55,271 nucleotides of DNA from a virus: the IMG/VR virus record IMGVR_UViG_3300046804_000671, positions 1 to 55,271 of that record. One strand, 5' to 3'. The position numbers and the translations under genes are program-made. Every line of letters begins with the position of its first letter. Positions within the stretch are counted from its first letter, which is position 1. Positions 5,241 to 49,840 of this stretch are shown here, one piece after another. The notes under the pieces were generated by a model that was not told where the DNA came from, made no database searches, and saw only the letters and a list, made by a program, of their open reading frames with translations.

Positions 5241-5456
5241 ATGGCTATGAAGAAGCAGAAGACCGCCAAGATCGTCAAGATGGCGAAGGGCGGTGCTACA
5301 AACAAGGACATGGGAGCTATGGGTCGCAATCTGGCTCGCGCCAAGACTCAGGAGTCGCCTATGTCAAAGACCAAGATGAAGTTCGCCTCTGGCGGCGTTA
5401 TGCGTGGTGCTGGCGCTGCGACCAAGGGAACCAAGATTTCATCAAAGATGGGGTAA
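5241..5456 (+). CDS. Small basic protein with degenerate RGDG-type tail
   Basis: The 71-residue protein starts at the ATG at 5241, after AAAGGA; the longer frame from 5193 overlaps the previous gene. Its C-terminus, GGVMRGAGAATKGTK, is a degenerate version of the tail in the 2110-2469 and 2469-2687 products, so the three form a family by tail. Function is unknown. Confidence 0.6.
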   Translation: MAMKKQKTAKIVKMAKGGATNKDMGAMGRNLARAKTQESPMSKTKMKFASGGVMRGAGAATKGTKISSKMG

Positions 5457-31302: not shown

Positions 31303-31599
31303 TTAAGCGCCAAGTCTTTTAAGAGTTTCTTTCTTTATTAGGTTCTTTAAGGCAGCTTCAAGCGTCTTACCCTTTGGCATTGCAGGAACAGTTGCTTCAT
31401 AGCAAGGATCATCCTTTGTCATAGAAAGATCTGTGATGGGATCATTGTATGGGGTCCCAAAACACGCACGCCAGTTAGTGGTAAACTTCATGATTGTGAA
31501 GTGACCATCATGATCTCTATCTGCAACTTCTTCTATTTTCTTCAGGAGTTCAAGAATTTTCTTTTCATTCTTGAATGTATCTTTTGTCCTAGGTGCCAA
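31303..31599 (-). CDS. Unknown small phage protein
   Basis: This 98-residue protein has a Lys-rich N-terminal helix, a central GHFTIMKFTTNWRACFGTP segment and a basic C-terminus. Start is TTG at 31599 with AAGGAG 7 bases before it. It lies directly downstream of a structured region that may regulate it. No family recognised. Confidence 0.55.
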   Translation of the reverse strand: MAPRTKDTFKNEKKILELLKKIEEVADRDHDGHFTIMKFTTNWRACFGTPYNDPITDLSMTKDDPCYEATVPAMPKGKTLEAALKNLIKKETLKRLGA

Positions 31600-31782
31600 G
31601 AGACTTCTCCTTGTTTGTTCCGGTTACGACATCCGGAGTAGGCATTCGCCCCTACCGCTTTAATGTGCGTCCTGTGGTAGCCACACAGGATTAGCCTTGT
31701 GATTGTGGGCTAGTCTCTAGACGTAAGCATGCATGTCCGTGGTCTAACTAGCAGCATCCACGTAGCCGTTCCACAATCACAA
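31600..31782 (-). ncRNA. Candidate structured RNA with pseudoknot
   Basis: Read on the minus strand, a 12-bp stem pairs 31771-31782 with 31697-31708. Inside it, 31758-31762 pairs with 31738-31742, and the loop (31747-31752) can pair with 31709-31714, an H-type pseudoknot. Three hairpins follow: 31670-31676/31684-31690, 31638-31642/31651-31655 and 31619-31623/31633-31637. A promoter-like site puts a start near 31780, at the base of the first stem. It could be a free RNA or a leader of the 31303-31599 gene. Confidence 0.5.
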
Positions 31783-31786
31783 AGAC

Positions 31787-31814
31787 ACTCTACACTAGAT
31801 CGAACTAACGTCAA
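31787..31814 (-). promoter_or_regulatory. Candidate sigma70 promoter for the structured RNA
   Basis: On the minus strand TTGACG (31809-31814) is 16 bases from TAGAGT (31787-31792). The -35 matches consensus at 5 of 6, the -10 at 4 of 6. The N16 spacer matches the two other minus-strand promoters at 33840 and 51857. Confidence 0.45.
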
Positions 31815-31822
31815 GAAGAAAA

Positions 31823-31899
31823 TGGTCGGAGTAGCAGGATTCGAACCTACGACCCTCTGCTCCCAAAGCAGATGCTCTACCAAGCTGAGCTACACTCCG
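31823..31899 (-). tRNA. tRNA-Pro (TGG)
   Basis: A full cloverleaf is visible: 7-bp acceptor (CGGAGTG with TACTCCG, one G-U), D-arm GAGC, anticodon loop TTTGGGA with anticodon TGG, T-loop TTCGAAT, discriminator A and an encoded CCA. Confidence 0.95.
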
Positions 31900-31912: not shown

Positions 31913-33820
31913 TTAAGTGAGGTCCACGACCTCGCATACTCCTGCGGAACACGCAAGGTCTTGCGAACCTGTCGTTCTGTCTCCCTGTTCAAACTTCCCA
32001 AGCTCTCTCCAATCAATAGCCGTAGGCATAGAACTGAGAAGCTTCTCGTAAGTCTCCTTATCGCATTCCTCATAGGGGGCCTGTCTGTATGAGTGGTCTG
32101 AGTGAGGCAGGAACGAGATGCCTGACACTTCATCGAAGTGCTTCCAGACCCACGCACCAACCTCAACCCATTCATGTTCCTTCACCGTCACAGTGATTGA
32201 CGGCTTGTGTTCGCACCAATGACGCTGAATCTTGAGCCAAAGTTCAAGCTGCTCGATGGCACTGAGATCGTTCCGCGTGATGCTTCCTTCCGGAGCCTTG
32301 ATCGGGAAGGAGAACACGGCGGTCGCCTCAGGTTTCATCACATCATCTTCAACCGGGATATTAGCCAGCGACATAAATGTAGTAATTGGGTCCTTCTTGT
32401 CCCCGCGAACGCGCCGAATATAATAAGGGCTGTGACGTGCATGAATACCACTAGCACTATCAACAAGCTGGCTAACCGTACCAGAAGGCTTGACGCAAGT
32501 GACGGCAGTCGATTGATTGATGCCAAGCTTCTCCGAAAGCTTCTTGTTAACAAAGACAGCATGATCTCTCCACGCCTCAAGATGTTCAGCAGGAGCGTCA
32601 TACACAAACTTGCTATCAAGGATGCCAGTCAGCGAGACTCCAAGCAGCCGCTCTTCCTCAGTGTTCTTCTTCCAGATACGACGAAGATAACGGAAGTCAG
32701 TCATGGTTGACTGGATTGTGCCAAGAATAGCGGCGACCTCGACCTTACGCATCATATCGTTATGGTCATCACCGGCACGGCACACCAGTTCAGTCAGGTT
32801 ACAGAACTGGTAAGGACGCAGGATGATCTCGGAGCAGGGGTTGGTTCCCCACTCATGACCACCCTCGCGACGACCGTTCTTTACAGCCTGCTTCTCGGAA
32901 GCTACTCTGTTAAAAATACCACGCTCTCCTGACTTGCTTTGGTAAAGAGCCAGCCATTCCTGCATGAAACTCCCAGTGTCGGGTCTTTCGGTATAACACA
33001 CAGAGTTATTTGCGAGAGCGCGTTGGGGTTCTGTTTCCCACCAAGCTCCTGACTTTGCTTGGCGCATTCTGTCATCGCTAAGGTTAGAAAGAGAAATAAG
33101 AGCAGAACGACGAACCCCGCCCACGACCACAACTTCCGCAACCTTGCAAGCAAGGTCATGGCACTCGATACTTGTGAGTTTTCTTCCCTTTGCATTCTGG
33201 AACAACCTTACTGCAAACTTAAACAAATCAACAAGAGGCTCAGGACCTGAGGCACGACCTCCGAAAGTCTTGAGGCGAGCGCCAGCAGGACGTACCTTAG
33301 ACACATCCCACTTGGGAATGCGACCACCGTACAGCATTGATACAAGTTCGCGGAACGCCTTTGCCCAGCCTTCCTTGCTATCCTCAACTACAATTGTAGT
33401 AGATGATTCATCGAACTGGTCCGAGATCACAGGGAGTTCGTTAACAAATTGACGCTCAACGCTAAACCCAACCCCAGTGCCACACATAAGGATATATAGC
33501 AACTCGTCAAACGCTCGCTGATCATCAATAGGAAGGTAGCTACAATTATACCCAGCCACATTGCAACGCTCCAGAGCAGGGCCAGCCGTCATCATGGCGC
33601 GCATAGACGGCATAACATCAAGGTTGATGATCGATGTGCGAATCTTGTTGAGGGTCTTGGCATCAAAGGAGAAGTCAAAGTTCTCCTTCAGATGATTTGT
33701 AAAGAAACTAATATATCTATCTACAGTCTCCTCCCATGTCTCTCTGCGTTGCTTATCATCAAGATATCGTGCATATCTTGATGCATGGATGAAAGACTGG
33801 TAATCTGTAGGTAGTGACAT
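31913..33820 (-). CDS. Ribonucleoside-triphosphate reductase, adenosylcobalamin-dependent (class II)
   Basis: The 635-residue enzyme reduces ribonucleotides to supply dNTPs. It matches monomeric class II reductases: redox Cys 93 in YNCSY, active-site NPCSE with Cys 329 and Glu 331, and the C-terminal CSAGVC shuttle (Cys 624, Cys 629). B12 must come from the host. The start is 33820, with GGAG 6-7 bases upstream; the ATG at 33841 lies in the promoter -10 and is excluded. Confidence 0.93.
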   Translation of the reverse strand: MSLPTDYQSFIHASRYARYLDDKQRRETWEETVDRYISFFTNHLKENFDFSFDAKTLNKIRTSIINLDVMPSMRAMMTAGPALERCNVAGYNCSYLPIDDQRAFDELLYILMCGTGVGFSVERQFVNELPVISDQFDESSTTIVVEDSKEGWAKAFRELVSMLYGGRIPKWDVSKVRPAGARLKTFGGRASGPEPLVDLFKFAVRLFQNAKGRKLTSIECHDLACKVAEVVVVGGVRRSALISLSNLSDDRMRQAKSGAWWETEPQRALANNSVCYTERPDTGSFMQEWLALYQSKSGERGIFNRVASEKQAVKNGRREGGHEWGTNPCSEIILRPYQFCNLTELVCRAGDDHNDMMRKVEVAAILGTIQSTMTDFRYLRRIWKKNTEEERLLGVSLTGILDSKFVYDAPAEHLEAWRDHAVFVNKKLSEKLGINQSTAVTCVKPSGTVSQLVDSASGIHARHSPYYIRRVRGDKKDPITTFMSLANIPVEDDVMKPEATAVFSFPIKAPEGSITRNDLSAIEQLELWLKIQRHWCEHKPSITVTVKEHEWVEVGAWVWKHFDEVSGISFLPHSDHSYRQAPYEECDKETYEKLLSSMPTAIDWRELGKFEQGDRTTGSQDLACSAGVCEVVDLT

Positions 33821-33839
33821 ATTGATCTCCAAAACCCCC

Positions 33840-33867
33840 ATTATACTAGATGTAGCTTAAATGTCAA
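33840..33867 (-). promoter_or_regulatory. Consensus sigma70 promoter for the reductase
   Basis: On the minus strand a perfect -35 TTGACA (33862-33867) and a perfect -10 TATAAT (33840-33845) are separated by 16 bases. Transcription would start near 33833, just before the reductase ATG. The -35 overlaps the dUTPase stop. Confidence 0.88.
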
Positions 33868-37397: not shown

Positions 37398-37650
37398 TGA
37401 GAAAATCCTCCGGGTTGACACCCTGAAGTTCCCACCATAGACGCTCATCTCCATTAGCATGCAGATCCATATGGTGCGTGCGGCACAGCGGAACTGTATA
37501 CTTGTCGTCAACCTTCATTGCCATTGCCTTGGGTTGAGCGAACGTGAGGTGATGAGCGTCTACGGTGGTAGTTCTACATATGAGACAGGGAAAGCTACGC
37601 ACCCGCCTCATATGTAGTTTGCTTCTAGACCGACGATCTTTCCTTATCAA
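37345..37650 (-). CDS. HNH nuclease, YbcO/DUF968-like
   Basis: This 101-residue protein has CxxC (C22, C25), H33-H34 and CxxHH (C56, H59, H60), a zinc-stabilised HNH layout as in YbcO/DUF968 proteins. Its place next to SSB, ERF and RusA genes suggests recombination or repair. Start TTG 37650 overlaps the SSB stop as TTGA; a later ATG at 37611 is possible. Confidence 0.65.
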   Translation of the reverse strand: MIRKDRRSRSKLHMRRVRSFPCLICRTTTVDAHHLTFAQPKAMAMKVDDKYTVPLCRTHHMDLHANGDERLWWELQGVNPEDFLNEHFGISLPIRSTTNFD

Positions 37651-48817: not shown

Positions 48818-48980
48818 TGGCGACTCCTGTATAGTTGTCAGCTTGTACCGTTTCACTGCCCATGACACGAACATCTAGCAATAACAGAACAGTACCTTGT
48901 ATGGCCTGCGGTGTCTGCATGTATCCAAGCAGAGTTTCCTCACCATCGCCCGTTGCTGACGCGGCTGCGGGAGGAGGCAT
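48807..48980 (-). CDS. 57-residue protein in the MoxR cassette
   Basis: A frame from ATG 48980 encodes MPPPAAASATGDGEETLLGY and then GTVLLLLDVRVMGSET, a beta-like domain. It begins 2 bases after the upstream stop and overlaps the next start. No clear Shine-Dalgarno is visible, so it may rely on coupling. Confidence 0.45.
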   Translation of the reverse strand: MPPPAAASATGDGEETLLGYMQTPQAIQGTVLLLLDVRVMGSETVQADNYTGVANER

Positions 48981-48982
48981 TG

Positions 48983-49840
48983 CTAGATGTAGGCGGACAC
49001 CTTGTTCAGAATATCACGCGCAGTCTGAGCGGCGGCGATGCGGCTGCTCTGGTTCTCGCGCAGATCATCAGATGTAATGGTGGCAAGGTCATGCTTGATC
49101 TGCATGGCAATGCCGTCAATGTCAGGATTGTTGGTGATGTTAAGCTTGGGCAGAATGTCAGCGAGGTCACTGATGTTGCTCATCATGGACTCACGGATAC
49201 CCTTGCCATCGTTGGCTTCCACCTCCTTGAGACGCTTGAGCATGTGTTCCATACGCATGGACACACGCTGAAACACATCACGCACAGCGTTGTCCTGTGC
49301 CTCCGAAAGATTCTGTTCGATCTCCTGCTTGGTGGATTGGAACTCCGACTCAGACAGGGAGACACGGAAGTCATTGGAGTCAGGCAGATTGAACACACGC
49401 ACATTGAAGGCATGCTTGCGGCGGATGCTTTCCGCGCTCGGGTAATCAGACTCCTTGAACAGACCATTGAGATCGAGGCGAGCCTGCTTGACCAGAGCAT
49501 CATACTCCACAAGCAACTTCTCCACAGCCTGATTGAACTGGCTGCGGTACTCAGACATACGCTGCACATATTCCAGATAGATATCCACGGGGATGATGCG
49601 GATACCATCGTTAAGCCAAGGCAGGGTGACGCTCATGGTATAGTTACGAGCGTTGCCTGCGATGCTGGTGATATCCTTAAGAGAGATAGGGTTCACCAGA
49701 ATCTTGTTGAAGCGACCGGCGCGAGAGGCGTCGGTGCCGTGGTTCTGTGCAACTTCAGCGGTCGCATCCTTGTCGTACTTGCGCCCCGACCAAGCAGAGA
49801 TCGAGAGAGCAACGAGCATAGCCTTTTCACTGATATTCAT
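48983..49840 (-). CDS. DUF3150-like coiled-coil protein
   Basis: This 285-residue protein has a small N-terminal domain with AWSGRKYDKDATAEV and a helical rest. The stretch about 90-230 (EKLLVEYDALVKQARLDLNG, MRMEHMLKRLKEVEAND) is coiled-coil-like. It resembles DUF3150 proteins, often found with MoxR ATPases in phages. It may bridge the ATPase and VWA protein. Assignment is from memory of the family pattern. Confidence 0.6.
   Translation of the reverse strand: MNISEKAMLVALSISAWSGRKYDKDATAEVAQNHGTDASRAGRFNKILVNPISLKDITSIAGNARNYTMSVTLPWLNDGIRIIPVDIYLEYVQRMSEYRSQFNQAVEKLLVEYDALVKQARLDLNGLFKESDYPSAESIRRKHAFNVRVFNLPDSNDFRVSLSESEFQSTKQEIEQNLSEAQDNAVRDVFQRVSMRMEHMLKRLKEVEANDGKGIRESMMSNISDLADILPKLNITNNPDIDGIAMQIKHDLATITSDDLRENQSSRIAAAQTARDILNKVSAYI

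Follow-up and report, generated by a model that had tools for sequence, protein, structure and literature searches.

The minus strand of a 55-kb phage record carries, at 31616-31658, what is probably a member of an undescribed family of phage RNAs, acting in cis as a leader element. The window, by which we mean the whole stretch of DNA analysed, is IMG/VR record IMGVR_UViG_3300046804_000671, 55,271 nt long. Conservation is confined to the last ~40 nt of the region, directly before a ribosome-binding site, and only the two 3' hairpins are kept elsewhere. By undescribed we mean absent from Rfam 15, which gave no match over the element in the window or the examined relatives at gathering or relaxed thresholds, and not found in the open-licence PMC literature, where the sequence was also searched as text.

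The locus is flanked by a tRNA-Pro gene and a 98-aa ORF, and its same-strand surroundings include genes for a ribonucleotide reductase (RNR, 31913-33841), a dUTPase-like protein and a metallophosphatase/exonuclease. The protein of the 98-aa ORF has no relatives by tblastn, and a DNA similarity search with the whole 251 nt found none for the region. The nearest relative of the window is the locus L002, whose RNR and metallophosphatase are 79% and 68% identical to those of the window. The features of the region, all on the minus strand, are the following.

31823-31899: tRNA-Pro (TGG), by ARAGORN and the Rfam tRNA model
31787-31814: promoter-like TTGACG-N16-TAGAGT, 9 of 12 matches, chance level
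31697-31782: perfect 12-bp stem (31782-31771 with 31708-31697) around a 62-nt interior, by inverted-repeat and fold analysis
31762-31758 with 31742-31738: hairpin CGTGG/CCACG inside the 12-bp stem, from the sequence
31752-31747 with 31714-31709: GCTAGT/ACTAGC, proposed pseudoknot with a competing nested alternative, from the sequence
31671-31689: hairpin 0, CCTGTG..CACAGG, fold z -3.2; L002 has CCCGG..CCGGG at the equivalent place
31616-31658: core element, GCG + hairpin 1 + hairpin 2 + ACA tail, by model R2; arrangement common to about 70 phage loci
31656-31658: GCG (RCG in the family), directly 5' of hairpin 1, possibly pairing with the CGU of loop 2; letters invariant in the scan counts
31638-31655: hairpin 1, GTAGG (GGCGAATG) CCTAC, present in the lowest-energy fold; in the family the stem sequence is free and pairing kept
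31619-31637: hairpin 2, TCCGG (ATGTCGTAA) CCGGA, abutting hairpin 1 with zero unpaired bases between; closing pair covaries in the family and is U-A here
31624-31628: CGUAA, conserved 3' half of loop 2
31607-31612: ribosome-binding site AAGGAG, from the sequence, 6 nt past the last base of hairpin 2
31303-31599: 98-aa ORF behind the element, TTG start at 31599; weak PHROG match of unknown function (E 1e-4)

The family was recovered with a pattern drawn from the window and L002. Run against 2.9 million viral contigs, it returned, besides L002, one coherent set carrying ACGGYGGTGAAAGCCCGCGCCGGAGACGTAACCGGC in unrelated phages, and BLAST with the ACGGYGGTGAAAGCCCGCGCCGGAGACGTAACCGGC core found matches in phages P1, P7, D6 and SJ46, in Bordetella phages IFTN2, IFTN6 and PHB04, in Enterobacter phages Tyrion and Arya, and in coliphages Bas97, Alux-21 and ECO1230-10. 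The core arrangement is present in about 70 diverse phage loci, including P1, Bordetella phages and Jilinviruses, a count that reflects CCGG-type members, as the CCGG stem of hairpin 2 was fixed by the scan. These loci show the form of the family: RCG, a hairpin 1 of free sequence and strict pairing, an abutting hairpin 2 with a fixed A..CGUAA loop, and an unstructured tail. The locus L302 has two CG-hairpin-hairpin arrangements with a CGUAA loop and a non-CCGG hairpin-2 stem, at 5383 and 5564 (+), 180 nt apart; given this pair, the CCGG scan may understate the breadth of the family. When the P1 form was used as query, 566 plasmid records matched, nearly all of them P1-like in size and host, and 543 of 5426 complete E. 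coli genomes (about a tenth) had a match, almost always on plasmids. Elements are rare in bacterial chromosomes, with one found by model R2 in 398 Pseudomonadota genomes; model R2 was clean there, whereas model R1 gave misleading E-values in GC-rich genomes and spurious weak matches in 50 of the 398. Phage records usually hold a single element (48 of 50).

The evidence for a folded RNA comes from how the parts of the element vary together. A loose scan of IMG/VR by hairpin 2 alone gave 100 distinct non-repeat places, and at 40 of these a CG followed by hairpin 1 stood in the exact abutting register, against 0.9 (maximum 3) in mononucleotide shuffles; other spacings from hairpin 2 accounted for 0-1 among the same 100 places. 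The closing pair of hairpin 2, which played no part in selecting loci, is paired in 69 of 70 loci with five pair types (G-C 57, C-G 4, U-A 3, G-U 3, A-U 2; the remaining locus has A-C), compared with at most 63 in 10,000 shuffles. The 70 loci had been selected for a hairpin 1, which biases their stem statistics; the bias-free statistics are the register count and this closing pair. Among 19 gap-free aligned sequences, four of the five pairs of hairpin 1 change on both sides, with a covariation of 0.279 against 0.078 in shuffled sequences and at most 0.072 with slid partners, and in the P1-like plasmid L347 the first pair has undergone a double change from G-C to A-U. The stem sequence and the loop of hairpin 1 are free across the family. 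In a strand-symmetric count of wobbles G-U occurs 11 times and A-C once, and therefore the functional molecule is most likely the RNA of the element's strand. On these comparative grounds the analysis shows an RNA whose fold is strongly selected for and which, in the data searched, is specific to phages and phage-plasmids.

The conserved letters behave differently from the hairpin-1 stem, whose sequence is free: RCG and the CGU of loop 2 are invariant. A control scan in which loop 2 was barred from containing CG, and in which compensatory variants were sought, gave 44 chance matches and no element, so the CG in loop 2 is essential. As its letters never vary, a pairing between RCG and CGU lies beyond the reach of covariation; such a short pseudoknot within the conserved part, distinct from the one marked further 5' in the list above, is possible.

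Membership of the family was judged by a CG immediately 5' of hairpin 1, a hairpin 1 with four or more pairs that runs directly into hairpin 2, a hairpin 2 of the form CCGGA-n(1-5)-CGUAA-CCGG with its closing pair, and a co-directional intergenic site before a start codon or tRNA. In the window we found GCG, then GTAGG/CCTAC running directly into TCCGG, then CCGGATGTCGTAACCGG with a closing U-A, at a site 20 nt before the TTG of the 98-aa ORF on the same strand. The window and L002 differ in hairpin 1 in a compensatory manner (GUAGG..CCUAC vs GCUGG..CCAGC), and CCGGA..CGUAACCGG follows in both. Model R2, which was built without either of them, ranked 31661-31616(-) highest in the window (23.5 bits, E 0.0015) and found L002 at E 3e-5, E-values of short covariance models being rough; in 739 kb from 80 other RNR-bearing phage loci it had no match. 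The score of the window is modest, its loop 2 being longer by one base and its hairpin-1 loop different, as would be expected if the two hairpins were unrelated to the P1-type element and resembled it by chance. We consider this extremely improbable: the register, the GCG, the U-A closing pair and CGUAACCGG all agree with the family, and the pattern drawn from the window and L002 retrieved nothing but true family members (plus L002).

The part of the region 5' of the core has a different standing. A previous sequence-only reading had proposed a pseudoknotted RNA, either independent or a riboswitch-like leader, beginning exactly at a promoter start near 31780. Its stem, hairpins, GCTAGT/ACTAGC match and TTGACG-N16-TAGAGT were all located on the minus strand where it had placed them, and the three further hairpins that it saw running up to the ribosome-binding site are hairpins 0, 1 and 2, followed by AAGGAG. 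The promoter exists as letters, 9 nt downstream of the end of the tRNA-Pro gene, but sites of this kind occur at chance level (2 observed vs 1.0 expected in 800 bp). The stem is of a kind commoner than chance, with 3 perfect 12-bp inverted repeats in the 55-kb window vs 0.2 in shuffled windows; the other two, at 37438-37562 and 48871-48990, likewise exceed the chance expectation. Stem and loop complementarity are present and the fold z is -2.8 for the 88-nt stem region (-2.3 for the whole 186 nt), in agreement with the proposal. Nevertheless, a 6-bp loop-to-outside pseudoknot of the GCTAGT/ACTAGC kind also turns up when the interior is shuffled (6% of shuffles), and in the minimum-energy fold GCUAGU and ACUAGC form a nested stem, not a pseudoknot. 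In L002 the stem, the pseudoknot and the promoter part are all absent, and the conserved core follows 8 nt after the end of a protein-coding gene. The covariation across relatives that this reading had suggested as a check is found in the two 3' hairpins, and the 5' pseudoknot has no relatives. We therefore consider it very unlikely that a pseudoknotted RNA starts from a promoter at 31780; the broader idea of a structured leader RNA before the next gene is borne out, since the last two hairpins belong to the covarying family. A riboswitch-like role is unsupported because the genes behind the element are diverse and share no function.

Long stems do occur upstream of other members, in 9 of 63 compared with 7 of 189 random windows, which also speaks for the 5' stem of the sequence-only reading. 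In L093, L100, L161, L183, L208 and L259, perfect stems of 13-19 bp with loops of 41-81 nt lie 85-260 nt upstream of the element. These are possibly RNase III sites, and the 12-bp stem of the window may belong with them.

Most elements run in the same direction as their neighbours. Their sites are gaps between phage genes or non-coding phage sequence, and many stand right at the 5' edge of the next unit, be it a ribosome-binding site with its start codon or the 5' end of a tRNA. In a large class the element fills a two-gene gap, with the preceding stop codon 5-30 nt away and the following start codon 14-36 nt away. In 5 of 70 loci, vs 0 of 1400 control windows, a tRNA begins 5-12 nt downstream of the element, and among P1 relatives the distance to the first tRNA stays at about 4 nt even though this tRNA changes from Asn to Arg. 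In three phages the same pair of genes flanks the element, and its hairpin-1 sequences are unrelated from phage to phage. RNR lies upstream of it in the window, L002, L199 and L234, and no common function was found among the proteins encoded around elements. Other copies lie within long structured non-coding stretches, with no start codon or tRNA directly behind, and many members end in an unstructured 3' tail rich in A and T. The P1 element is followed by two tRNAs and by sequence antisense to plp/upl, beyond which lie tciA and ban. Arya and Bas97 have a promoter-like site before the element and an intrinsic terminator about 185 nt after it; across the family, intrinsic terminators within 400 nt are in slight excess downstream (7 of 61, vs 2 of 61 upstream), and promoter scores around elements are equal upstream and downstream. 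The idea of a replication origin was rejected, as there was no element-specific turn in GC skew beyond the change of gene direction.

Other phage RNAs were seen alongside. The P1 leader that carries the element, between the ban promoter and tRNA-Asn, also holds an annotated dicF-like region and then a terminator-like hairpin (L103 1984-2085). Bordetella phage PHB04 (MF663786, L104 1500-1741) has a permuted tmRNA match (RF04321, 104 bits, above the gathering score) inside an extended array of tRNAs and long perfect stems, where the new element lies as well. A second conserved non-coding module, GTGAATGCGCAGGC...GGTGAAAGCCTAGTTCGCTGG, is 80% identical between L094 10500-10684 and L099 4001-4183 (Stenotrophomonas phage CUB19); it lies upstream of a tRNA cluster in CUB19 and has no Rfam match.

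We compared the element with known structured RNAs. ROOL and GOLLD, ornate RNAs, are also often found near tRNAs. They resemble the new element as structured non-coding phage RNAs (PMC12286853); the element, however, has about 40 nt and no Rfam match. HDV-like theta ribozymes are phage RNAs beside tRNA genes (PMC10879173), with a nested double pseudoknot P1-P4 that the element appears to lack; a simple home-made descriptor matched 1 of 70 regions vs 5 of 70 controls, and this class was rejected. In the P1 subgroup two adjacent loops carry UGAAA / CGUAA-like letters and lie beside tRNAs, a likeness to the interdigitated double T-loop of RNase P and T-box stem I (PMC4810234); however, conservation of loop 1 does not extend to the wider family, and a contact with tRNA is only a candidate. 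The closest likeness in arrangement is to the put RNA of phage HK022, in which a pair of adjoining hairpins on the emerging RNA binds RNA polymerase and counteracts termination, with antitermination passing via the beta' zinc-binding domain (PMC9378689). Both are pairs of adjacent hairpins in a phage leader transcript, and no dedicated phage protein is known for either. In contrast, put has about 70 nt and a 5' AGACG/CGUCU duplex, and the element about 40 nt; comparison with putL (about 28294(-) of NC_002166) gave no common motif, and model R1 had no match in 22-36 kb of HK022. Membership of put was thus rejected on sequence, and a put-like activity is a candidate.

By this analogy, the mechanism that we tentatively favour as most likely is a put-like action on RNA polymerase. 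Hairpins 1 and 2 would stack on each other, RCG would dock onto the CGU of loop 2, and a host factor would recognise the resulting surface as the transcript emerges. The element would act on elongating RNA polymerase as HK022 put RNA does, so that transcription continues into the genes or the untranslated tRNA stretch behind. In P1, an untranslated transcript would cross the tRNAs and the plp/upl antisense stretch toward tciA and ban, where protection from Rho would help. Against this stand the unlikeness of its sequence to put and the terminators behind elements, which are not clearly enriched (7 vs 2 of 61); the benefit of antitermination in structural-gene and RNR operons, which are translated, is unclear.

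Possibly, and to a comparable degree, the fold serves as a 5' boundary that would set or shield the 5' end of the mRNA or tRNA precursor behind it, through processing and stability, or would leave the ribosome-binding site accessible, with RNA polymerase uninvolved. The start codons 14-36 nt behind, the five tRNAs 5-12 nt behind, the kept spacing in P1 relatives and the A/T-rich unstructured tails all agree with such a role, but the strictly kept CGUAA loop and 5' CG exceed the needs of a protective hairpin, and neither the copies in long non-coding stretches nor the usual single copy per phage would be expected from it. The single copy, together with the very different neighbours and the kept loop letters, would instead suit a trans-acting small RNA or decoy that is cut from a carrier transcript and binds a host factor (tRNA, ribosome, RNase or a defence component), and the copies that lie between a promoter-like site and a nearby terminator point the same way. 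Precise placement 5' of tRNAs and start codons favours action in cis, and we regard a trans-acting RNA as rather unlikely.

An RNA element that covaries, carried by the textbook phage P1 and by roughly one in ten complete E. coli genomes, appears to be unlisted. Its small size, a tractable laboratory host and the fixed distance from tRNAs in P1 relatives make its function directly testable. It is conceivable, if doubtful, that it represents something categorically new: a protein-independent, pseudoknotted two-hairpin device of 40 nt, found roughly once per phage in unrelated tailed phages, P1 among them, that would manipulate a universal host machine (RNA polymerase, the ribosome or tRNA maturation) to express the unit behind it. 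If the element is put-like, protein-free antitermination would be far commoner than the few known put phages suggest, and in general the element may help the expression of the genes or tRNAs behind it.
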